Assembly: GCF_013004105.1 (NCBI RefSeq)
Contig: NZ_CP053085.1
Span: 1,612,001 to 1,676,000 of the forward strand
Length of the DNA: 64,000 nt
From: Gemmatimonas groenlandica
GTDB lineage: Bacteria > Gemmatimonadota > Gemmatimonadetes > Gemmatimonadales > Gemmatimonadaceae
Direction: 5' to 3'
Shown here piece by piece: positions 22,756 through 35,443 of this stretch (the stretch's first letter is position 1; every line of letters begins with the position of its first letter). The notes below the pieces were generated by a model that ran no database searches, was not told the origin of the DNA, and was given only the letters and a program-made list of their open reading frames with translations. Both the position numbers and the translations under genes were made by a program.

Positions 22756-24237
22756 TCAGGTCACCGTGAGGGTCGTGGCGCCGGGCGTGTAGATCACGGT
22801 GAGCGTGGAGAGATTGTCTGCGCGCTGCGGCGACGACTGCCAGACGCCGGCGCCGTTGAACAGGGCGCCATGATTGGGACACCGGAAGCTGGTGCCGTTC
22901 ACCACGTTCACCGTCGTGCCGGCATGAGGACAGCGCATGGAGAAGGCGGCAAAGCTGGTGGCGCTGAGGCGCGAGACGGCCACGGGCCCCCCGTTCACAT
23001 TGCCGACACTGCCGGCGACGCCGCCCACGTTGGCCAGGGCCGGCCAGGCGGCAAGGGTGACTACCAGTCCGGCGGCGGTCACGGTGAGGGTCACCGCAAT
23101 CGTGCGTGACGCCACGCCGTTACCACTGACGGTGATCGTGGCCGTGTAGCTGCCGGCGGCCAGGGCGCCGACACTCGGGCGCACGGTGAGGGTGGCCGGC
23201 GCCGTGGTCTGATTGAGTGTGGTCGTGATCCAGCCCGTCGCGCCGGCACCGTAGGACACCGTCGCGACCAACCCGGCCAAGGTGCCGCCGCCGCTGTTGT
23301 TGCACTGCACCACCTGCGCGGCCGGCGTACTGCCGACCGGCGCCGTGAAGGACAGCGCCGCTGTCGATAGTTGCAGCGCGGCCGGTGTGGTCGGATCCTG
23401 CACCAGCAGCGAGACGCTCAGTGTTTGCGCACCGTTGCTGACGCCGGCACCGGATATGGTGACGGTGGCCGTGTAGTTGCCGATCGGCAGCGTGCCGCGC
23501 TGCGCCGACAGCGTCAACGTGGAAGGCGCCGACGCCTGACTGAGCGCCAGCGACAGCCAGCCGGTACGCTGCCCCGGTCCGTACGTAAGTGTGACCGCCA
23601 GTCCACCAAGAATGCCACCGCCGTCATTCGCAATCGCGACCGTCTGCGCAGACGGGGCGTTGCCAGTGAGCGTCGTCAGGAACACGACCGACGTGCGGTC
23701 GAGACCAAGCACCGGGGGCGTGAGGGCACCGCCGATCATGAGCGATCCGTCGGCGCTCTGTCGCACGTCGAGCGCCGTGAGTCCGGCGGTCGGTTGTCCG
23801 CTCAGCCACGTGCCGTCATTCGCGAAAACGGCCTCATGATTCGGGCACCGCAGTCCGGTGGCGGTGACATCCACGATGGAGCCGCGATGCGGACACACCA
23901 GCGAGAGCGCGCGGAACTGCGCCGAACCGACGCGCTCTACCACGACAGGGGCCGAGGTGCCGGAGACGACGACGGCACGGCCGCCGACCGAGGCGAGTTC
24001 AGGAACCGTGGACGGATCGAGCCGGAAGGGCGCCGGGATGGCGTCGAGCACCTGCTCGGGGCCGCTAATGATCCCGTCGCCGCAGCCGGAAACCAGGACG
24101 CCGAGGGTCAAGGCCGAGGCCGAGGCCAGAAACTGGCGCCGATCGACCCGATGGCAGCCACCACAGGGCGACGGATCAGAGGGCGACAGCTCGGTTGCGA
24201 GCGGGGACGACGGATCAAACGACGGATCGTGAGGCAT
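22756..24237 (-). CDS. Tat-exported protein with two Rieske domains flanking two BACON-like repeats
   Basis: This 493-residue protein has a twin-arginine signal DRRQFLASASALTLGVLVSGC ending in a lipobox-like Cys at about residue 52. A first Rieske [2Fe-2S] domain has ligands C115, H117, C131 and H134 (CPHRGS, CPNHEAVF). Two Ig-like repeats follow at about residues 178-280 and 285-385. Each has a GPGQRTGWLSLALSQ or GAGATGWITTTLNQ core that resembles BACON domains. A second Rieske domain at about residues 395-493 has C436, H438, C453 and H456. All eight cluster ligands are present. An extra CGGCH precedes the Tat motif. I infer an exported redox or carbohydrate-linked electron carrier, but the partner is unknown. 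Confidence 0.85.
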   Translation of the reverse strand: MPHDPSFDPSSPLATELSPSDPSPCGGCHRVDRRQFLASASALTLGVLVSGCGDGIISGPEQVLDAIPAPFRLDPSTVPELASVGGRAVVVSGTSAPVVVERVGSAQFRALSLVCPHRGSIVDVTATGLRCPNHEAVFANDGTWLSGQPTAGLTALDVRQSADGSLMIGGALTPPVLGLDRTSVVFLTTLTGNAPSAQTVAIANDGGGILGGLAVTLTYGPGQRTGWLSLALSQASAPSTLTLSAQRGTLPIGNYTATVTISGAGVSNGAQTLSVSLLVQDPTTPAALQLSTAALSFTAPVGSTPAAQVVQCNNSGGGTLAGLVATVSYGAGATGWITTTLNQTTAPATLTVRPSVGALAAGSYTATITVSGNGVASRTIAVTLTVTAAGLVVTLAAWPALANVGGVAGSVGNVNGGPVAVSRLSATSFAAFSMRCPHAGTTVNVVNGTSFRCPNHGALFNGAGVWQSSPQRADNLSTLTVIYTPGATTLTVT

Positions 24238-25469: not shown

Positions 25470-26813
25470 CTACGGTGTACCGGTCTGGCCGCGGATCTCA
25501 CCGGCCGGGAACGTGGTCGAGTGCACGTTCACGTACGCGTTGCCCGTGCGCAGGAGCGTCATGAGCGAGTCGAGGGCGATGGGCGGCTGTCCGCTGATGC
25601 CACGGATATCGGACGCCGTGAACGTGCCCGTAAGCACGCCGCTGTTGCTCGTCTGTGTCTGCTTGACCAGATCGACGATGACGCCCGCCGTGGCGGCGAG
25701 ACCGGCCGGTGCGTGGATGTGGGCACCGGTCGGGATCGACGCAATGCCCTGATACGTGACCGTGTACGTGACCGAGGCGCCGTTGCGCGTGAAGACGGCG
25801 GCGCCGTTCGCACTGGTGGTCACGGGATTGGGACGTTCGTTGGCGCCGTTCAACAGGGCCATGATACCACTCGGCAACACATTAACCGTCCCCGACATGC
25901 CGGCGTGCAGCGAGCACACATACGGGTAGCTGCCTGCCGTGGGGAAGGTGCGCGCCACCGACGAGTTGGAGACCACCGGCACGTTGGTCGGTGCTCCCGC
26001 CGACTGAAAGAGCACATTGTGCTCGATGCTACCGAAGCTGAAGGTCACGACGCCGCCTTCGGCAATCGTGGTGGTGGCCGGCGTGAACACGTTGGCGTTG
26101 GTGGCCTGCACGGCAACAGCGGTGGCGCCGCTGATCGGCGCCGTCACGGTAATCGCCGCGCTGCCAGTGGCGGTCACGCCATCCCGCGTCAGTGAAGCGC
26201 TGACCGACGCCGCGCCCGGTGCGATGGCGGTCACGAGTCCATCGACACTGACGATGGCCTTCGTGCGATCGGCGCTCGTGTACGTCACGCCGGTGACACC
26301 GGCGATGGCGTTACCGCGCGAATCACGGGCGGTCGCGGTGAGCTGCGTGGTGCTGCCGATCGCCGGCGTCAGCGCGGCCGCTTGCACGGCCAACGTGGCG
26401 AAGCGCTGCGCGACATCGACCGCGACCGTTCCCGACACCGATCCGCTGGTCGCGGTGATCGTGGCGGCGCCATTGCCGGTAGCTGTAATCGTTGCGGTGG
26501 CGCCCGATCCCGAGACGGTGGCGACGGCGGCGTTGCTCGTGCTCCAGCTCACGGCGGCTCCGCTCAGCGTAGCCTGACTGGCGTCCTTCACCACCGCCGA
26601 GAGCGACCGCGTGGCGCCGAGCGCGGTCAGCGCACCGGTTTCGGCGGCACTGACCGCCACTGATGCCGCGACCGCGGTTGGCGTCGGCGTGGTGGTGCCG
26701 CCATCGCCGCCACTGCAGGCCGCGAGGGTGAACAGCAGCGACATCTGTGCGGCGCATGTCGCTACGCGTATCGCTGCGCGCGTGCCGCGTGCATCACGGA
26801 GTGTGGTGAACAT
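25470..26813 (-). CDS. Lipoprotein with two Ig-like (BIG2) domains, a cupredoxin domain and a CHRD domain
   Basis: The 447-residue protein starts at ATG 26813, with GGGAG upstream. It has a lipobox (LFTLAAC, Cys33). Two bacterial Ig-like domains follow, at about residues 45-225 (VSWSTSNAAVATVSG and VTYTSADRTKAIVS). A cupredoxin-like domain at about 230-315 has EHNVLF and YVCSLHAGM, giving a plausible His-Cys-His-Met copper site. The C-terminus is a CHRD domain with AHIHAPAG and NVHSTTFPAGEIRGQ. It is probably anchored in the outer membrane or periplasm. It is the last gene of the sigma-factor cassette and has a GGGAATAG motif about 70 bp upstream. Confidence 0.85.
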   Translation of the reverse strand: MFTTLRDARGTRAAIRVATCAAQMSLLFTLAACSGGDGGTTTPTPTAVAASVAVSAAETGALTALGATRSLSAVVKDASQATLSGAAVSWSTSNAAVATVSGSGATATITATGNGAATITATSGSVSGTVAVDVAQRFATLAVQAAALTPAIGSTTQLTATARDSRGNAIAGVTGVTYTSADRTKAIVSVDGLVTAIAPGAASVSASLTRDGVTATGSAAITVTAPISGATAVAVQATNANVFTPATTTIAEGGVVTFSFGSIEHNVLFQSAGAPTNVPVVSNSSVARTFPTAGSYPYVCSLHAGMSGTVNVLPSGIMALLNGANERPNPVTTSANGAAVFTRNGASVTYTVTYQGIASIPTGAHIHAPAGLAATAGVIVDLVKQTQTSNSGVLTGTFTASDIRGISGQPPIALDSLMTLLRTGNAYVNVHSTTFPAGEIRGQTGTP

Positions 26814-26880
26814 CGGTCGATCTCCCGGCGAGAATGAATCGGCGACACGGACGTGCATCGCCACCGGGAGTAGAGCGAAC

Positions 26881-26899
26881 AAGCGAGGAAACTATTCCC
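26881..26899 (-). promoter_or_regulatory. GGGAATAGTTT motif, possible ECF sigma promoter element (site B)
   Basis: On the minus strand this reads GGGAATAGTTTCCTCGCTT. It overlaps the end of the kinase-like gene and lies 68 bp upstream of the Ig-like/cupredoxin/CHRD lipoprotein start. Nearly the same sequence is found upstream of the ECF sigma gene at 32691-32710. A -35 role is inferred from position and similarity. The -10 is not clear here. Confidence 0.4.
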
Positions 26900-28931
26900 G
26901 CGGGGCGGCGGACGTCTCGAGCCGTTCGAGCCGTTCGAGTACGTCGGCCGCCGAGTGGGCCCGGTTGGCCAGGTCATTCTCCGTCATGGAAGCGATCAGC
27001 GTATCGAGCGGCAGCGGCCAGGCAATCGCGTCGGAGCGTGCATGTGCTCCAGGCTCGTCGCCCAGGCGACCGCCGATGAGCGTCACCGGCATGTCATGCC
27101 GTTGCGGCGCGTGACCGGCGAGACACTCATGCAGCACCAGTCCGAGTGCATACAAGTCGCTGGCGAATGAGGCCGAAGCGCCGATGAGCTGTTCGGGCGC
27201 GAGGTACTCCGGCGTCCCCACGGTCGCTCCGGTGACGCGTCCCGACAGAGAGGCGTCGCCGGCGCGCTGCACCGACTGCGCCCGCTGCGCGGCGTCGCGC
27301 AGCGCGCGCGCGATGCCGAAGCCCGCGAGCTTGACCTGCCCGCCGGCCACGATGCGAATGTCGCTCGGTTTGATATCGCCATGGATCACCTGCTCCGCGT
27401 GCGCGGCCGCCAGGGCGCGCAGCAGCTGCCGCGCCAGCGCGATCACGCCGTCAACTGGCAGAGTGCCCCACTGACGGAGCACGCTCGCGAGTGAAACGCC
27501 GGGCACGAACTCCGATGCCACGAACGGCACGCCGTGGTCGTCGCCCACGTCGCGAACCTGCGCGACGTGCGGATGCACGACGCGGCTCGCCTTCGCCACA
27601 TCAGCCGCGAGCAACGCGCGCGCGTCGTCGTCGAGAAAGAGTCGTTCAGGGCGGACGACGCCGAGCGCGACCAATTCTCCGCGATGGAGATCCAGGGCGC
27701 GATACAGCACGCCGCGGTCACGCTCGCCGAGTATCGCATCGATGCGATAGCGCTTGGCCACGGTGCTGCCCAGCGCGAACGGCGTCGTGTCGCTGTCCGC
27801 CTCACTCAATATCGGCAGCGGAAGCGCGCGTGGCAGCGACAGCGTGCGCTCCACGCGATGACGAAGCGGCAATATGCTGCGCGACGTCTCGGTGGCGACA
27901 GGATGCTCGGCGGTCACCAACGTGGCAACGTCAGGCGAGAGTAGCCGACTGAGCGCGACGTGATCCTGCAGATCACCACGTGCCGCGGAAAGCTCACGAG
28001 CAAGGACCTGCCGCTCGTGCTCAAGCCGCCCGGCCGGTGCGCCCACGACCCGGTGAGCGACCAACGCGGCTACGACAGCGAGCAGCAAACCGAGTGCACT
28101 GGCGATGGCCATCGCACGACGCAGCGCCGCGATGGCCGGAACCTCCACCTCGGCTCGCCGCAATACGAGGTAGCCACCGACCTCCGTGCCACCCGCGGTG
28201 TTGAGCGCCGTCGCATGCGTGATCCACTCCCGACCGTCGATCACGAGCGGGGCCTGCCCCGATGCCCTGCTCCGCACGGCCTCACGCAACGACGTATCGC
28301 GCGTCATCGTCGACGCGGCGACGTGGGCGACGCCATCGGCGGTGCGTACATAGAACACCAGCTCGCTGCCCGTGGCCGTCGCGATGTCGACCGCTAATGC
28401 GGAGTCGAGCAGTCGCGTGGCGACCAGCACACCGAACGGCGACCCTCCCGGGGCCGCCACCGGAACGGCGGTCGCCTGAAAGAGCGCGGAATCACCGGAT
28501 CCACCAAAACCGGTCATCACCTGTCCCCGGAGCGCCCCCGAAATCAGCGAGACGTTCGCGAGCTGATCGCCGGAGGCGGAGGGCTCGTCGGACTTCGCCA
28601 CCAGCATGCCCGAGGCATCGGTGATGAAGACCCACGAGGCGTCGAGCTGTTCGGCGGCTTCGAACGTCTGGTCGAGGATATCGTCGCGACGGCTTTCGGC
28701 GACGAGCGTGCGAAAGTACGGCCCTTGCACAAACACGCGCGCGCCGCCGGCGAGACTGCGGCCACGTCCAGCGAGGAGCTGCGCGACGAGGTCGGCCGAC
28801 TGCTCGAGCGCGCGCACCGCGCCTGCGGCGGCGGCGCGTCGCGCTTCGGTCCGCGCCACGGTAAACACCGTGCCCAGCACGAGGGCGACGATCGTGACCG
28901 CCCCCACGAAGACGCGCGCGGTGACGTGCAT
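26892..28931 (-). CDS. Transmembrane sensor with a degenerate Ser/Thr kinase domain (predicted pseudokinase)
   Basis: The 679-residue protein has a membrane helix at about 7-27, an extracytoplasmic sensor region (28-265) that resembles a Cache domain, a second helix at about 273-292, a helical linker, and a Ser/Thr kinase-like domain from about 392 to 670. The HRD-type motif is HGDIKPSD with Asp519 and Lys521 kept. However, the beta-3 Lys of VAIK is Gly424 (VALGVV) and the DFG Asp is Gly537 (AGFG). APE (578-580) and the F-helix Asp592 are kept. Loss of the ATP-anchoring Lys and the metal-binding Asp argues for a pseudokinase. It lies between two cupredoxin genes in a sigma-factor cassette. 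Confidence 0.85.
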   Translation of the reverse strand: MHVTARVFVGAVTIVALVLGTVFTVARTEARRAAAAGAVRALEQSADLVAQLLAGRGRSLAGGARVFVQGPYFRTLVAESRRDDILDQTFEAAEQLDASWVFITDASGMLVAKSDEPSASGDQLANVSLISGALRGQVMTGFGGSGDSALFQATAVPVAAPGGSPFGVLVATRLLDSALAVDIATATGSELVFYVRTADGVAHVAASTMTRDTSLREAVRSRASGQAPLVIDGREWITHATALNTAGGTEVGGYLVLRRAEVEVPAIAALRRAMAIASALGLLLAVVAALVAHRVVGAPAGRLEHERQVLARELSAARGDLQDHVALSRLLSPDVATLVTAEHPVATETSRSILPLRHRVERTLSLPRALPLPILSEADSDTTPFALGSTVAKRYRIDAILGERDRGVLYRALDLHRGELVALGVVRPERLFLDDDARALLAADVAKASRVVHPHVAQVRDVGDDHGVPFVASEFVPGVSLASVLRQWGTLPVDGVIALARQLLRALAAAHAEQVIHGDIKPSDIRIVAGGQVKLAGFGIARALRDAAQRAQSVQRAGDASLSGRVTGATVGTPEYLAPEQLIGASASFASDLYALGLVLHECLAGHAPQRHDMPVTLIGGRLGDEPGAHARSDAIAWPLPLDTLIASMTENDLANRAHSAADVLERLERLETSAAPRE

Positions 28932-28942
28932 CGCCGACGCTG

Positions 28943-29629
28943 CTAATACCGGTCAGCGCGCGATGTCGCGTACGGCTGGCCGAACTTGTTCGTGTGGGGT
29001 TTGGGCACGTAGCCGCGCCCGTCGAGGGCCACCACGATGTCGGAGAGACCGTCCGCGGGGACGATGATCGTCTCTACGTGTTCGGGTGCCCGCTCATGCC
29101 ACACGTGCAGCCGCCACGCTCCTGCCGGCACTCGCGCGATCGTGAACACACCGGATGCTTGCGCCCGCGCGACATACGGCGTGGGAACGGCGACGACATA
29201 GCTCACCATGCGCGCGTGGATGTTGCAGTAGATCGCGTACACGCCGGCCTTGGGAAACGTCGTTGCTCGGCTCTTTCCGGTACGATACAGACCGAGATCG
29301 AAGGCGCCGAGTGCGGAGTTCGAGAAGACGTTGTGGCTGAACGGGTCCTGATTGGGAAACGCGACCGCGCCGCCGACGCCGATGGTCTGCACGCGCGGCA
29401 CGAACTCGCGCAGTCGCATCCCCACCGACGCTTTGGCCATGTAAACGGTGGGGCCGCGCGGGCGCTCTCCGCTCGCTTCGAGGAAAATCACCGCATCACT
29501 GAGCGTCGCTGGCGCGCCGTTGGCCGTTTCGATCACGCGCAACTGGCCTCGCACGGCGCCCTGCGCCTCGAGCCTCGTGACGCCTGCGCCGCACACGGCC
29601 ACCCCCCACGCGAGCGCGGCGACTCGCAC
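28943..29629 (-). CDS. Exported cupredoxin (plastocyanin/azurin-like) protein
   Basis: The 228-residue protein has a signal peptide ending near RLEAQ. Its cupredoxin fold has PFSHNVFS, then YAIYCNIHARM, giving the complete His, Cys, His and Met ligand set of a type 1 copper site. A carboxypeptidase-regulatory-like tail (GVFTIARVPAGAWRLHVW) follows. Some related proteins are annotated as methylamine utilisation proteins, but nothing here supports that pathway. The likely GTG start at 29629 lacks a clear ribosome-binding site; the open frame upstream overlaps the barrel gene. It ends 11 bp before the sensor gene. Confidence 0.85.
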   Translation of the reverse strand: MRVAALAWGVAVCGAGVTRLEAQGAVRGQLRVIETANGAPATLSDAVIFLEASGERPRGPTVYMAKASVGMRLREFVPRVQTIGVGGAVAFPNQDPFSHNVFSNSALGAFDLGLYRTGKSRATTFPKAGVYAIYCNIHARMVSYVVAVPTPYVARAQASGVFTIARVPAGAWRLHVWHERAPEHVETIIVPADGLSDIVVALDGRGYVPKPHTNKFGQPYATSRADRY

Positions 29630-29667
29630 GTATCGCGAGCATGACGATGGCTGCGCGCGACGCCGGG

Positions 29668-31095
29668 TCACAGCTCGATCCCAAAGCCGATGTTGAGATG
29701 ACGCGCGTGCTGCAGTCCAGCGGCGTAGCGGGTTTTGAGATCGCGCAGTTCGAACGAGAGAAGGAGTGGCTGCGCCGGACGCCACATGGCCTGCACGGCA
29801 CACACGCTGTTGCGGCGACGGTCCGCGCTGGCGCCCAACACGCGATCGGTACCGCAGCCCACGCCGGCAATCACGCGCGGGTGCCACTGCACGTTGAGCT
29901 GGACCCATCCGGCCGCGTCGGTGAGCGGCACCCCGGGTTTGTCGACATTGTTGCCCAAGACGCCGAAATTCTGACCGATGGCGCCGCCACCGAGTCCCCG
30001 CAGGAGTCGGCCTCGATACGCTTCGCCGCGTACCTCGACGCCGTGTCCAAGGGCGACGCGCGCGTCGGCACTGGCGGCCCAACTGGTCAGGTTCGTGTCG
30101 CCGACGGCGCGCAGCCAGCCGCGATGCGTGCCGACACCGACCTCACCACCGTGCGAGAGGACTGACTGGAGCCCCGCCACCTCCTCGTCGATACCCCAGC
30201 GCAGTCTGGCCCGAGACTCGAGCGCCGGTCGTCCGCTGAGCTGGCCGGCGTCGGGCCCTGCCGGGTCGGTCACATGGCGGTCCGCGCTAAAGGGCGACAT
30301 GATCGCCCCCTGAAGCGCAATCGAGACGGGTGTACCGGCACGGCGCCGCCACAACTCGCGCGTCACGCGAACCTGTGGCAACCAGTTCCACAAATTGCCG
30401 GCCGCCGTGAACGTAGGGATCGCCACGCCGGCCGCCGTGATCGGCGTGAGATCGGAGATGAGCGGCGTCTCCATGCCGACCATCACCTCCGTGCGCGGCC
30501 ACACCAGCATGGCGCGCGCCGTGCGCAGTCGCGGCTCGGGGAAGAGCGGCGGATTCGGATCGAGTGCCCGGGCGAAGAAATCCAACTCGAGGTCCGCGAA
30601 GAGCACGCCGCCCAGCACGCTGTCCACGCTGACGCTGGCGCCCACGACCGATTGACGCATGGACAGTCCGAGGGTGTGCACGCCGGTGGACCCGTACTGT
30701 GGGTCGGCCGGTCGCGCCACGGCCGCGAACGTCGGCACCTCCGAGTTCGACGCGACGCCGGTGGTGCGCCACCCATTCACGATCAGACGCGCCGAGAGTT
30801 CGAGCTGCACTCGTGAACGCAGGCGAACCTGCGTGGACGATTCGGTCGCGAGTTGCTGTCGCAACAACGCCAACGCCGCCTCGGCACGTTCGAGGCGTAC
30901 GGCGATCGAATCGAGCGTGAGTCGTGCCCCCGTCGAGTCGCGGGCCAGCGAATCGCGCGGCGGTGGCCCCTGCGCGTGCAGGCCGCGGGCGCTGACGGTC
31001 AGCAGCAGCGCCGACCCGAGACGGACCAAGAGACGGGGAGTGAACACGACTCCAATCAGCGGTGCGATTGGATCGAGCGCAACGTGCCCCATCAT
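29668..31095 (-). CDS. Predicted outer-membrane beta-barrel protein of the sigma-factor cassette
   Basis: The protein of about 475 residues has an N-terminal signal region ending in GLHAQ, then a helical coiled-coil-like stretch with heptads (SIAVRLERAEAALALLRQQL). A long run of amphipathic strands follows, with RLRSRVQLELSARLIVNGW and FADLELDFFAR, ending in LNIGFGIEL. This resembles porin-like barrels that have an N-terminal periplasmic coiled coil. The start is either ATG 31095 or GTG 31047; the GTG would give a shorter, more typical signal peptide. It follows the anti-sigma gene by 23 bp. Confidence 0.8.
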   Translation of the reverse strand: MMGHVALDPIAPLIGVVFTPRLLVRLGSALLLTVSARGLHAQGPPPRDSLARDSTGARLTLDSIAVRLERAEAALALLRQQLATESSTQVRLRSRVQLELSARLIVNGWRTTGVASNSEVPTFAAVARPADPQYGSTGVHTLGLSMRQSVVGASVSVDSVLGGVLFADLELDFFARALDPNPPLFPEPRLRTARAMLVWPRTEVMVGMETPLISDLTPITAAGVAIPTFTAAGNLWNWLPQVRVTRELWRRRAGTPVSIALQGAIMSPFSADRHVTDPAGPDAGQLSGRPALESRARLRWGIDEEVAGLQSVLSHGGEVGVGTHRGWLRAVGDTNLTSWAASADARVALGHGVEVRGEAYRGRLLRGLGGGAIGQNFGVLGNNVDKPGVPLTDAAGWVQLNVQWHPRVIAGVGCGTDRVLGASADRRRNSVCAVQAMWRPAQPLLLSFELRDLKTRYAAGLQHARHLNIGFGIEL

Positions 31096-31118
31096 CCATC
31101 GGCGACTCCGGCGAGCCG

Positions 31119-32036
31119 TCAGTGCGCGCGCGGATGCAGGGCCACGAGCGCCGGCCAGCGTTGGTCGGCGACCACGACCGTGCTTCCCTGCCCGGAGGAC
31201 CACGCGAGCATGCCGACGCCGGAGGCATCGGTGCCGACCGACTGCCCAGCCGCGAACGCGCCGCGAATGGTGAGCGAGCGAAACAGCCAGGCATCGGAGA
31301 ACACGTACTGCATCACGAGTGCGTCGCGCCACTTGTACGCAAGTACCGCCGCCACCTCTCCATCGAGCTCGGTGGTCCAGGCGGCAACAAGCTGGAGGTC
31401 CGCGCGACGAAGCGGCTCCACCGAGAAGGGGACGGCCCCGCGCACGGTCTCCAGATCGCGCGCACGCCCGGGCAAATCCCGCGCGCTGGCGGTGAGAAAG
31501 TCGGCGGCCACGAGCGAAAGCAGGGGGATCGGCGCGGTCACGACGAGTGGCGCCGGCTGCAGCGCGGCGATGTCCGGCTCCCGAGTGCGCGGGGTGAACA
31601 CGAGCGCGGCGGCCATCACGACGACGACCGACACCAGGCCGACGAGCCACCGGCGCCGGCTCGCGGCCATCGTGGCTGTGCCATCGATCGACGCGGCGAC
31701 GATCGATGCCGACGGCACGGGCTCCGCGGCGATCGGCGCCGAGGCGATCGGCGCCGAGGCGATCGCCGCGCGCAGCCGGTCGTCGAAAGCGGCTGACACG
31801 GCCGGTCGGGCGACACGGGAAAGCCGGGTGGCGAGACTCTGGTGCACCGTGACCTCCCGTCGGCAGCGGCCGCAACCGAGCAAGTGCGCGTCGATCTGAG
31901 CCATCGTTTCCGGCGGCAACTCGCCGTCGACGTACGCCGCCAACAGCGTCGCCAGCACTTCGTGCCGCGCCTCGCGTGTCGCGTCGTCCTCGGGCTGCAG
32001 CCGGCCCGCGGCTGCCCCTCCCTGCCACTCACTCAT
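31119..32036 (-). CDS. Zinc-finger anti-sigma factor, membrane-anchored
   Basis: The 305-residue protein has a zf-HC2 motif near its N-terminus (DAHLLGCGRC, H-x3-C-x2-C), typical of ZAS-type anti-sigma factors that hold ECF sigma factors inactive. A basic stretch precedes one membrane helix near residues 131-148 (WLVGLVSVVVVMAAALVF). The periplasmic part of about 150 residues has no known fold that I recognise. It overlaps the sigma gene (ATGA). A short tandem DNA repeat encodes API-AS repeats near residue 95. Confidence 0.88.
   Translation of the reverse strand: MSEWQGGAAAGRLQPEDDATREARHEVLATLLAAYVDGELPPETMAQIDAHLLGCGRCRREVTVHQSLATRLSRVARPAVSAAFDDRLRAAIASAPIASAPIAAEPVPSASIVAASIDGTATMAASRRRWLVGLVSVVVVMAAALVFTPRTREPDIAALQPAPLVVTAPIPLLSLVAADFLTASARDLPGRARDLETVRGAVPFSVEPLRRADLQLVAAWTTELDGEVAAVLAYKWRDALVMQYVFSDAWLFRSLTIRGAFAAGQSVGTDASGVGMLAWSSGQGSTVVVADQRWPALVALHPRAH
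31729..31766. repeat. 15-bp tandem repeat inside the anti-sigma gene
   Basis: The unit GCGATCGGCGCCGAG occurs twice in full (31729-31743 and 31744-31758) and is followed by a partial third copy. It encodes alternating API and AS residues in the linker before the membrane helix of the anti-sigma protein. The repeat keeps the frame, so copy-number change would lengthen or shorten the linker by five residues. Confidence 0.8.
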
Positions 32037-32674
32037 GATGTCCTCGGCGCTCGTCCATGACCGCTCCGCAATTCGCCCCGTGCCTCGCTGCGTCGACCGA
32101 GGTCAGTCGCACCGAGCGCCCACTGTTGACGACGTTCCACGATCACGCCGGCGAGCAGCCGGCGACCGCGAGAGATCCGGCTCATGACCGTGCCGATCGG
32201 CACGCCGACAATGTCGGCGATCTCGTGATACTTGAACCCTTCGATGTCGTGCAGTTCGACCGCCGAGGCGAAATCCTCAGGAATCGCGTCGAGCGCCAAG
32301 CGCAGCATCTCTTCGTCGAGGCGGGCGACCACTTCGGCGAACACGACATCGGTGTCGGTCGACACGAACTGCTCGTGCACGTCCTCGAGGCGCGACATCT
32401 GCACCAGCCGTGCACGTCGGCCGGTGCGGTCGAACGCGTCGCTGAGCACCGTGCGCAGAATGCTGAAAAGCCACGGACGCACGCGCGCGGGATCGCGCAA
32501 TTCATCGAAAGCGCTCCACGCCCGCACGCACATGTCCTGCACGGCGTCTTCGGCGTCACTGAACGAGACCGTGCGCCGCGCCGCGAAGCCCAAGAGGCGA
32601 TCGAGATGCGGACGCACGAGGTCCTCGTAGCGCTGCTGTCGTAGCGCGAAGGCACTGGCCGAATCGGGAGTCAT
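32033..32674 (-). CDS. ECF-type RNA polymerase sigma factor
   Basis: The 213-residue protein has sigma region 2 at about residues 15-85 (DLVRPHLDRLLGFAARRT, then DAEDAVQDMCVRAWSAFDEL) and region 4 at about 130-185 (GFKYHEIADIVGVPIGTVMSRISRGRRLL). There is no region 3, as expected for an ECF sigma. The gene is coupled to its anti-sigma by overlap. The ATG at 32674 has no ribosome-binding site, and a GGGAATAG motif lies about 36 bp upstream, which would suit a leaderless, autoregulated transcript. The long frame upstream of the ATG is a GC artefact. Confidence 0.93.
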   Translation of the reverse strand: MTPDSASAFALRQQRYEDLVRPHLDRLLGFAARRTVSFSDAEDAVQDMCVRAWSAFDELRDPARVRPWLFSILRTVLSDAFDRTGRRARLVQMSRLEDVHEQFVSTDTDVVFAEVVARLDEEMLRLALDAIPEDFASAVELHDIEGFKYHEIADIVGVPIGTVMSRISRGRRLLAGVIVERRQQWALGATDLGRRSEARGELRSGHGRAPRTS

Positions 32675-32690
32675 ACGATCGGTGACGGGG

Positions 32691-32710
32691 GCACGAGGCA
32701 AACTATTCCC
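32691..32710 (-). promoter_or_regulatory. GGGAATAGTTT motif upstream of the ECF sigma gene (site A)
   Basis: On the minus strand the sequence is GGGAATAGTTTGCCTCGTGC. A CGTC sequence follows 16 nt after GGAATA, a spacing that fits ECF -35 and -10 elements. The transcript would then begin close to the sigma start codon, which lacks a ribosome-binding site. The site is in the 87-bp gap shared with the divergent aminopeptidase gene. Confidence 0.5.
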
Positions 32711-32761: not shown

Positions 32762-35443
32762 ATGTCTTCTTCCCGATCCTGCCGCCCTTCGCGCCCTCTC
32801 ACGGGCGCCCTCGCGGGTCTGCTCGCCGCCGTCCTCGCGTGTGCCGTCGTCACCCGCGCCGGCGCGCAGTCGCCACTCCTGACCGGCCCCGGCGTCTCCG
32901 CCGAGCTGGCGCGTCTCCGGGAGGCACAGGTCACCGACGTGGCGTACGACCTCGCGCTCTCGGTGAGCGCCGGAGACACGGCGACGGGCCGGGTGACGGT
33001 GTCGTTTACGCAGCGCACGGCGGGCGACGTTGTGCTCGACTTCCGCGGACTGTCGGTGCGTGATGGGAAGATCAACGGTGCGGCATGGGCCGAGATGGCG
33101 GCGGCCTGGAACCGGCATCACCTCGTCGTTCCCGCCGCGCGTCTCCGGCTCGGCCGGAATTCGGTCGAGGTGGGGTTCGCGACACCGGTTGCCCAGGCCG
33201 GCGCCAGTATCATCCGCAACCGCGACGCCACCGACGGCAACGTATATCTCTACACGCTGCTCGTACCGTCGGACGCGAACCTGCTCTTCCCCTGTTTCGA
33301 TCAGCCTGATCTCAAAGCGAAGGTACGCCTCTCGCTTACCACGCCGATGGCTTGGCGCGCGCTCGCGAACGGCCGCGAGATCGGTGTGGACACGGCCGGC
33401 GCGCGAGTCACGCATCGTTTCGCCGAGACGCAGCGCCTCAGCACCTATCTCATCGCGTTCGCCGCCGGTCCGTGGGCGAGTGTCACACGGAGCGTGGCCA
33501 CGACCTCCAAGGCGGCGCCCGTACCCGTGTCGCTCTGGATGCGCCAGTCACGTCGCACCGAAGCAGAAAGCGACACGCTGATCGAGATGAATGCGCGCGC
33601 GCTGCGCTGGCTGGGCGACTGGTTCGGTATCCCCTACGCGTTCGACAAATTCGATGCCCTGCTCGCCCCGGCCTTCCCGTTTGGCGGTATGGAACATCCG
33701 GGCGCGGTCTTCTACAACGAAGAGAGCTTCATCTATCGCGAACGTCCGACCGTTTCGCAGCTACTTGGCCGACAGGCGACGACGTTTCACGAAGTGGCTC
33801 ACCAGTGGTTCGGCGATTACATGACGATGCGATGGTTCGATGATCTGTGGTTGAAAGAAGGATTCGCGACGTACATGGCAGCGCGCATGCAGGCCGATCT
33901 CGAGCCCACCTCGAACGCGTGGAAGACGTTCTATCTGCGCAACAAGCCGGTGGCGTACGCGACCGACGCCACGGCGGGCACAACCCCGATCTGGCAGCAG
34001 CTTGGCAACCTCGATCAGGCCAAGAGCAACTACGGTCCGATCGTCTACAACAAGGCGCCGGGTGTGCTCAAGCAGCTCGAGTATCTGGTGGGTGCGGCGG
34101 CGTTTCAGCGCGGGGTGCAGGATTTCCTGCGCACGCATGCCTACGACAACGGTACGTGGCGCGAATTGCTCGGCAGCGTGGGGCGTGCGGCCAGTCGCGA
34201 TCTCACGGCATGGGGCCAGGCGTGGATGCTTCGCCCCGGCATGCCGCTGGTCGAACAGCGACTCACCGTGCGCAACGGCGTGGTGCAGCGACTGGCGCTG
34301 GTGCAACGCGCGGCCCAGCCGACGCTGTCGGGGCGCGGTGCCTGGCCGCTCAAGGTACAGCTCCTGATGTACTACGCGAATAGACCGGCGGTGCGCCTTC
34401 CCGTGGAGATGCGCGGCGATACGACGTTCGTGACCGCGGCCGCGGGACGGCCGGCCCCCGACTTCGTGTTCGCGAACGACGGAGATTACGGCTACGCGAT
34501 CGTGCTTCCCGACTCCATGAGCGTGCGGTGGCTCGAGCAGCACATCGGCGCCGTGCGCGACGACTTCTTGCGGGCGATGCTGTGGGGATCGCTGTGGGAT
34601 CTGGTGAGAGAAGCGAGGCTCTCACCGGCGCGCTACGCCGAGATGGTGATGCGCGAACTGCCCGCGGAGCGCGACGAGCAGATCACGGGAGCGCTCGTGG
34701 GCCGCCTCTCCACCGTGATCGGGCGCTATACCGACGACGCGGCGCGCGAGGCGCTGCTCGCTCGTGCGGAGCCCGTGTTGTTACGGGGCGCCGCCGACAG
34801 CGCGCGCAGCTACGGGCAGCGCAAAACGCAGGTCGATGCGGTGATCGGACTCGCGCGCTCGCCAGCCTCGCTGCAGCGGCTCGATCGCTGGCTCGATGGC
34901 GACACGGCCGCGGGGTTAGCCCTGCGGCCACCCACACGATGGTCGATCGTGACGCGGCTGGTGGCGCGTTCGGCACCGAGTGCGTCCGCGCGGTTGGCCG
35001 CGGAAGCGCGTCGCGATTCCACGAGTGAAGGACAACGACAGGCGTTCGTCGCCGACGCGGCGCGTCCGGATTCGGCCCATAAGCGCGCGTTGTTCACGCG
35101 GTGGTTCTCGGATGTCGCGCTGAACGAAGAGTGGGTCACGTCGAGCCTGCGCAGCTTTCACGACGCCGACCAGTCGACGATGACGAAGGCGTACCTTGTG
35201 CCTGCGCTCGATACGCTGCCGTGGATTCAGCAGAATCGCCGCATCTTTTTCCTGGGCAGCTGGCTGGGCGCGACGATCGGCGGCCAGAGTGATGCCGCGG
35301 CGCTCGGGCAGATCGACCGCTGGCTGGCGTCGCATCCGGCGCTTGCCCTCGACCTCCAGCAGAAGATCCGGCAGAGCCGAGACGAGCTCGAGCGTACGGT
35401 CCGGATCCGGCAAGCGTTCAGCGCGGGGACGCCTCGACAGTGA
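32762..35443 (+). CDS. M1-family metallopeptidase (aminopeptidase N-like), exported
   Basis: This is an 893-residue zinc aminopeptidase with a signal peptide ending near TRAGAQ. The N-terminal beta domain is followed by a GGMEHPG exopeptidase motif, a variant of the usual GAMEN. The zinc-binding HEVAHQWFGD is followed by the downstream glutamate in WLKEGFATY. The C-terminal half is helical, as in the family. It probably acts on peptides in the periplasm or outside the cell. It is divergent from the ECF sigma gene. The length and motifs fit an intact enzyme. Confidence 0.93.
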   Translation: MSSSRSCRPSRPLTGALAGLLAAVLACAVVTRAGAQSPLLTGPGVSAELARLREAQVTDVAYDLALSVSAGDTATGRVTVSFTQRTAGDVVLDFRGLSVRDGKINGAAWAEMAAAWNRHHLVVPAARLRLGRNSVEVGFATPVAQAGASIIRNRDATDGNVYLYTLLVPSDANLLFPCFDQPDLKAKVRLSLTTPMAWRALANGREIGVDTAGARVTHRFAETQRLSTYLIAFAAGPWASVTRSVATTSKAAPVPVSLWMRQSRRTEAESDTLIEMNARALRWLGDWFGIPYAFDKFDALLAPAFPFGGMEHPGAVFYNEESFIYRERPTVSQLLGRQATTFHEVAHQWFGDYMTMRWFDDLWLKEGFATYMAARMQADLEPTSNAWKTFYLRNKPVAYATDATAGTTPIWQQLGNLDQAKSNYGPIVYNKAPGVLKQLEYLVGAAAFQRGVQDFLRTHAYDNGTWRELLGSVGRAASRDLTAWGQAWMLRPGMPLVEQRLTVRNGVVQRLALVQRAAQPTLSGRGAWPLKVQLLMYYANRPAVRLPVEMRGDTTFVTAAAGRPAPDFVFANDGDYGYAIVLPDSMSVRWLEQHIGAVRDDFLRAMLWGSLWDLVREARLSPARYAEMVMRELPAERDEQITGALVGRLSTVIGRYTDDAAREALLARAEPVLLRGAADSARSYGQRKTQVDAVIGLARSPASLQRLDRWLDGDTAAGLALRPPTRWSIVTRLVARSAPSASARLAAEARRDSTSEGQRQAFVADAARPDSAHKRALFTRWFSDVALNEEWVTSSLRSFHDADQSTMTKAYLVPALDTLPWIQQNRRIFFLGSWLGATIGGQSDAAALGQIDRWLASHPALALDLQQKIRQSRDELERTVRIRQAFSAGTPRQ

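Follow-up and report, generated by a model that had tools for sequence, protein, structure and literature searches.

A conserved ECF sigma, porin, cupredoxin and dCache sensor cassette in Gemmatimonas groenlandica and some other Gemmatimonadota

We analyzed a window of 64,000 nucleotides (positions 1612001–1676000 of the single-contig 5.18 Mb Gemmatimonas groenlandica genome; feature coordinates below are those of the window) and found that six of its genes are real, conserved and form a coherent signalling cassette in some Gemmatimonadota. The genes lie on the minus strand, from 32674 down to 25470, and encode in that order a sigma factor, an anti-sigma, a porin, a cupredoxin, a sensor and a lipoprotein; coordinates, Pfam matches and the predicted porin model bear out this order, which had been proposed in an earlier sequence-only reading. 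In the interpretation we favour, to which we give about an even chance of being correct, the locus is the sigma-wired form of a wider module, in which the sensor acts on the anti-sigma and phosphotransfer is dispensable.

Genes of the cassette

The first gene (32033..32674, minus strand) encodes an ECF sigma factor of 213 aa (PF04542 1.4e-13, PF08281 1e-12), and an alignment of 19 orthologues places a DAED motif in region 2.2 of the window protein and of nearly all the others. A 4-bp overlap (ATGA) joins it to the gene for a transmembrane zinc-finger anti-sigma of 305 aa (31119..32036, minus strand), which has a zf-HC2 domain (PF13490 4e-11) with an HxxxCxxC motif and one strong transmembrane segment at residues 130–148. 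With only regions 2 and 4 in the sigma factor and a zf-HC2/HxxxCxxC protein encoded directly beside it, the two belong to the ECF sigma factors paired with a class I (zinc) anti-sigma. Both HxxxCxxC and an LPGRARDL...LAYRW region are conserved in the anti-sigma alignment, and the C-terminal domain is likewise conserved.

After a gap of 23 bp follows a 475-aa protein with an N-terminal helix (29668..31095, minus strand), for which the AlphaFold model and Foldseek point to an outer-membrane beta-barrel of the porin type. A Pfam search of this protein gave no match, and its model (pLDDT 75.6) led Foldseek to the general porins (Omp32, 1e54, E 6.5e-12); judged on the model, it is a predicted general-porin fold with a signal peptide. 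Its stop codon is overlapped by 4 bp (GTGA) by the GTG start of an exported cupredoxin of the 'methylamine utilization protein' type (28943..29671, minus strand; weak match to PF00127). The type 1 copper ligands of this cupredoxin (His, Cys, His, Met) are invariant among 14 sequences including Proteobacteria, in agreement with the full ligand set ascribed to it earlier, and by this ligand set it is a predicted type 1 copper protein.

The sensor gene (26892..28931, minus strand) starts 11 bp further on, and Pfam, residue states and the structural model indicate a periplasmic dCache_3 domain, a degenerate HAMP/linker and a Hanks-type pseudokinase (dCache_3 1e-15, Pkinase 2e-27, two transmembrane segments). 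The last gene (25470..26813, minus strand) follows after 78 bp and encodes a lipoprotein with, according to Pfam, two Ig-like Big_2 domains, a Copper-bind domain and a CHRD domain; its cupredoxin ligands are retained in orthologues. A spacing of 11–78 bp had been given for the whole run, and the gaps of 11 and 78 bp stand, but two of the gene pairs overlap by 4 bp. It is important to note that some gene starts were inferred from promoter distance and overlap.

Two neighbours may be mentioned here. The gene two places past the lipoprotein (22756–24237, minus strand) encodes an exported protein with a twin-arginine-like motif and two Rieske domains (PF00355); Rieske-like genes also lie downstream in several loci of the genus with no sigma promoter within 320 nt, and the Rieske gene of locus L041 does have a site. 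On the other side, a divergent gene for an 893-aa protein (32762–35443, plus strand) adjoins the sigma promoter and, from a HExxH-type motif in its sequence, looks like an M1-type aminopeptidase. Similar genes occupy the same place in L033, L035, L037 and L039.

Conservation, candidate promoter and possible regulon

A search of 298 Gemmatimonadota genomes with the cupredoxin, many or most of these genomes being draft or metagenome-assembled, gave matches in 138, and 40 loci were fetched. Thirteen of the fetched loci, together with the window, carry the sigma, anti-sigma, porin, cupredoxin and sensor genes on one strand (group A). The other 27 have cupredoxin and sensor together and no sigma pair (group B); the porin gene is divergent in 24 of these and was missing from the other 3 in our searches, so that porin orthologues are present in 38 of the 41 loci of this first set. 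Five further loci from the genus (L129–L133) are also of group A, L133 being cut before the sensor. Conservation of gene order in relatives had been proposed beforehand as a check, and the order of the first five genes is kept in 19 sigma-containing loci (including the cut one), so the run of genes is not due to chance. Among the 298 genomes, orthologues of the anti-sigma (E<1e-30) coincide with group A: they were found in its 14 genomes and in no others, and the next match is at 3e-10. All 14 carry the sensor, cupredoxin and sigma genes, whose co-occurrence the sequence-only reading had staked its case on. The module thus exists both with and without the sigma pair, but the sigma pair was found only together with the module. 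Both forms are present in the genomes G079 and G202.

Cupredoxin and dCache-kinase genes also occur together in named genome contigs of Acidobacteriota. Among loci with an assigned phylum, the only one outside Gemmatimonadota to have the sigma pair is L228 (CALQGY020000026.1), a group A locus under a Candidatus Kuenenia label; this contig probably belongs to Gemmatimonadota and was misbinned. The earlier reading had left open, as an alternative to a dedicated envelope system, that unrelated exported proteins are merely encoded in an ordinary operon. Exclusive co-occurrence, conserved order and a common candidate promoter contradict that alternative and support a dedicated system, and with the sigma-less core extending to Acidobacteriota we regard an ordinary operon as barely credible.

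Upstream of the sigma operon lies a candidate ECF promoter, GGGAATAGTTTGCCTCGTGCCCCCGTC (32684..32710, minus strand), consisting of a −35 element GGGAATA, a 16-bp spacer and a −10 element CGTC. A second candidate copy, GGGAATAGTTTCCTCGCTTGTTCGCTC (26873..26899, minus strand), overlaps the sensor stop codon and lies before the lipoprotein gene. Both the sigma and the lipoprotein gene are thus preceded by GGGAATAGTTT(G)CCTCG, a pairing that the earlier reading had missed. The core 11-mer GGGAATAGTTT occurs twice in the 5.18 Mb genome, both times at this locus, and when one mismatch is allowed 0.1 matches are expected in the window. In relatives the conserved sequence upstream of sigma is GGGAATA, a spacer of 16–17 bp and SSTC, and the candidate promoter precedes the sigma operon in 19/19 sigma loci, with small variants in some. 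The distance from −35/−10 to sigma is mostly fixed; in 16 of the 19 loci the site is no more than 150 nt from the sigma anchor, with A or C as its first base in three, and in L040 it is at −186.

Fourteen loci have a linked lipoprotein/CHRD gene, and a site lies upstream of it in 12 of them; in L040 and L041 that site is on the opposite strand. Where the lipoprotein gene comes first (L039 and L132) the site before it reads GGGAATG, and L038 and L131 do not fit the pattern of a promoter before a lipoprotein/CHRD gene. The strict pattern GGGAATA-N16/17-SSTC gave 28 sites in the 19 sigma loci and 0 in 28 sigma-less loci of the group B type, and its reversed control gave 0 and 1, respectively. The pattern was refined after seeing the same sequences, and its real test therefore lies in the group B loci and the reversed control. 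The strict 16-bp pattern has five matches in the genome of the window, two of them at this locus. These sites suggest that the sigma factor may autoregulate its own operon via the candidate promoter, with −35 and −10 elements common to a putative regulon.

Further members of the regulon were sought by pattern searches. In seven group A genomes, 5 of the 37 off-locus copper-bind/CHRD genes have an upstream site of the loose pattern, with 0 for the reversed control and a background of ~0.4 expected, as estimated from the loose-pattern rate in group B loci. Of the five, G158 contributes a CHRD gene, G071 the gene of a cupredoxin lipoprotein, G079 two divergent genes and G241 the gene of a protein with a C-terminal cupredoxin. 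In L041, a Rieske gene with a Tat signal also has a divergent site facing it. There are many other strict sites, which lie before genes of unrelated types or before no gene at all. A cupredoxin/CHRD regulon of the sigma factor is put forward here as a putative one. None of the off-locus copper and CHRD genes in the genome of G. groenlandica itself has a site, so the regulon of this genome may be local, and the Rieske gene of the window was dropped as a candidate member, as no site lies within 320 nt of its Tat motif.

Some individual sites were also recorded. At L155/L173 (G079:C2, about 2086469–2088291) two head-to-head cupredoxin genes are each faced by a site of the sigma-promoter type. A strict site lies 166 nt upstream of an arylsulfotransferase-family gene in L107 (G071:C51), and in L115 (G244) and L043 (4069, minus strand) a strict site lies before the gene of a 383-aa exported PEP-CTERM protein, beside the cupredoxin gene in the locus.

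With exported cupredoxin, CHRD and Rieske proteins as its candidate targets, the copper or redox theme suggested earlier gains support. It is a narrower claim that the cassette is specifically a copper-detoxification system, with copper as the signal and the cupredoxins binding its excess. Two proteins with complete type 1 ligand sets and further cupredoxin genes that carry the promoter would suit such a role. However, type 1 cupredoxins are mostly electron carriers, the locus consists of porin, cupredoxin, sensor, CHRD and Rieske genes, and no copper exporter or oxidase was found among the sites checked; we consider detoxification unlikely.

Loss of catalysis in the sensor kinase domain

The kinase domain of the window sensor had been described as degenerate, and indeed both the VAIK Lys and the DFG Asp are replaced by Gly. 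The catalytic-loop Asn is Asp, and the HxD Asp is retained. By residue loss the domain is classed as a pseudokinase, the catalytic state here and in the orthologues being read from motifs only. The sensor model has a pLDDT of 85.5, and its closest PDB fold is the PknA kinase (4ow8). Every one of the 27 kinases from group B in the first set retains the Lys, Arg, Asp, Asn and Asp, while the Arg of HRD is absent from every group A kinase examined, most of which have HGD. Within group A the catalytic residues are retained in L038, L039, L041–L045 and L129–L132, and also in L033 except for the DFG Phe; they are lost in the window, L034–L037 and L040.

When a tree was built from the dCache domain together with the other genes, the group A loci came out as a single clade (100/100), and three changes are needed on it to account for the pseudokinase state. 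A single origin for the window and L034–L037 was rejected, the one-clade topology having a p-AU of 7e-61. As far as motifs tell, the pseudokinase is a derived state: the sigma-less and the nearest sigma-linked relatives retain the catalytic residues, which were lost on at least three occasions. The pseudokinase, to which the earlier reading gave the part of a binding switch, is thus not a defining part of the system, given that the sigma-less kinases are intact and that most sigma-linked ones, in which HRD reads HGD, keep the Lys, Asp, Asn and Asp.

The HAMP domain follows a similar course. Scores are 66–99 bits in group B, 31–58 in outer group A and below 17 in the inner clade of the genus, on a profile that was built from group B and so favours it. 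The window sensor scores from none to −0.4 bits, and a HAMP domain between membrane and output is not recognised in it. For the dCache and kinase domains, mean identity goes from 33/60% (group B) through 59/56% (outer group A) to 84/54% (L034–L037), and for the window against L033, L129 and L131 it is 69/41%. In pairwise comparisons (NG86) the kinase domain has a dN/dS of 0.33–0.44 among pseudokinases and 0.07–0.19 among the intact pairs tested, and the dCache domain in the same pseudokinase proteins has one of 0.07–0.12. The window and L033 give 0.57, with dS above 1. Taken together, the shift in identity and the dN/dS values suggest that the pseudokinase domain is still retained, though under relaxed constraint, and that constraint has shifted to the sensor domain.

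It could be argued that the kinase domain of the window genome is a leftover that decays without a role, the sigma factor having taken over the output and the dCache domain working alone or with the anti-sigma. The loss of catalysis and HAMP fits this, as does a pseudokinase-domain dN/dS about 2–5 times that of intact ones. That ratio is nonetheless still 0.33–0.44 between pseudokinases, the open reading frames are all full length and the fold is predicted with high confidence, which makes a leftover improbable to us.

The main rival to our reading makes the sensor a target that the sigma factor controls, not the regulator of that factor. The anti-sigma would then sense the envelope through its own C-terminal domain, the porin, cupredoxin, sensor and lipoprotein would be the response, and the sensor would act elsewhere. 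ECF operons often have response genes downstream of the sigma/anti-sigma pair, the C-terminal domain is conserved as noted above, and when the alignments were read by eye no Ser/Thr that tracks the kinase state was seen in the anti-sigma or the sigma factor. However, catalytic and HAMP loss is confined to the sigma-linked branch, where constraint comes to be strongest in the sensor domain, and this fits a new output route through or beside the sensor. We find the sensor-as-target explanation possible but rather doubtful.

Related systems and proposed signalling

Plasmids of Proteobacteria encode a dCache_3-HAMP-GGDEF-EAL protein directly after a homologous cupredoxin ('methylamine utilization protein'). 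The Novosphingobium and Caballeronia plasmids also have a DUF3034 gene and a truncated haemoglobin gene; in Comamonas the cupredoxin and EAL protein come after a DUF4394 gene, and DUF3034 and haemoglobin are not annotated in its stretch. The Caballeronia sensor aligns with that of the window (2e-10), and the Comamonas sensor gave no significant alignment with it. These operons share with the window a homologous cupredoxin with the same ligands, encoded directly upstream of a membrane dCache_3 sensor, and it is by this arrangement that the window locus is assigned to a dCache_3-cupredoxin module. They differ in having cyclic-di-GMP enzymes as output in place of a kinase or sigma factor, and in the truncated haemoglobin, none being identified in the window locus. 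We also considered the porin as a DUF3034 homologue and found no similarity. The sigma-less modules of Gemmatimonadota and Acidobacteriota are closer, having the same cupredoxin, sensor and kinase and, in Gemmatimonadota, the same porin, but their porin gene is divergent, sigma, anti-sigma and promoter motif are missing, and kinase and HAMP are intact. From homology and gene order, these systems appear to be one sensing module with swapped outputs.

Among known ECF systems, the ECF43 sigma factors (EcfP/PknT, EcfK/PknS) are activated by a Ser/Thr kinase and have neither DAED nor an anti-sigma (PMC8999054). They resemble the window in that an ECF sigma factor is encoded with a Hanks-type kinase; direct phosphorylation of the sigma factor as in ECF43 was set aside, as the window has DAED and a zinc anti-sigma. 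Mycobacterium tuberculosis PknB phosphorylates zinc anti-sigmas, for example in SigH/RshA (PMC8999054, PMC13147305), and this is a precedent for signalling from a kinase to an anti-sigma. A zinc-type anti-sigma and a membrane Ser/Thr kinase are common to both cases, but PknB is a general PASTA kinase, whereas the window has a dedicated dCache sensor with a pseudokinase in the same operon. Cell-surface signalling of the FecI/FecR type through TonB was rejected, since the barrel resembles general porins and the anti-sigma is zf-HC2.

We propose that the wider module senses the envelope and comprises the porin, a periplasmic type 1 cupredoxin and a dCache_3 membrane sensor, with HAMP and an intact Hanks-type kinase as the output of the sigma-less form. 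In the form seen in the window, the operon also contains the ECF sigma factor and its transmembrane zinc anti-sigma. A periplasmic signal would be read by the cupredoxin and the dCache domain; it may be redox, copper or a small ligand, the first two being candidates because of the proteins involved. The signalled sensor would act on the anti-sigma and thereby release the sigma factor. Judging from the candidate promoters, the sigma factor would activate its own operon, including porin, cupredoxin and sensor (a feedback), and a second unit with the Ig-cupredoxin-CHRD lipoprotein, and in some relatives other cupredoxin, CHRD and Rieske proteins as well. Phosphotransfer may have been used at first or been optional, and contact would transmit the signal in the window genome, whose sensor has lost HAMP and catalytic residues. 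It is possible that the anti-sigma, having its own conserved C-terminal domain, might sense without the sensor.

A more specific version of this proposal, which we hold only tentatively, is that a kinase sensor was captured by an ECF system and became a dedicated regulator of the zinc anti-sigma, first as a non-RD kinase and then, repeatedly, as a binding pseudokinase. If true, such a capture would be a mode of ECF control with no counterpart found in the literature searched, and intact and dead versions of one switch would exist in close relatives.

The literature searched also contains no description of the module as such, nor any account at module level of the 'methylamine utilization' cupredoxins and CHRD proteins, for which the cassette offers a role. 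It also supplies an ECF pair with a candidate promoter and a candidate regulon. Beyond this, it provides a natural series of one cassette with a cyclic-di-GMP output, an active kinase, a kinase with a sigma factor, and a pseudokinase with a sigma factor, which allows tests of how an output is swapped and of why a kinase loses catalysis yet is kept.
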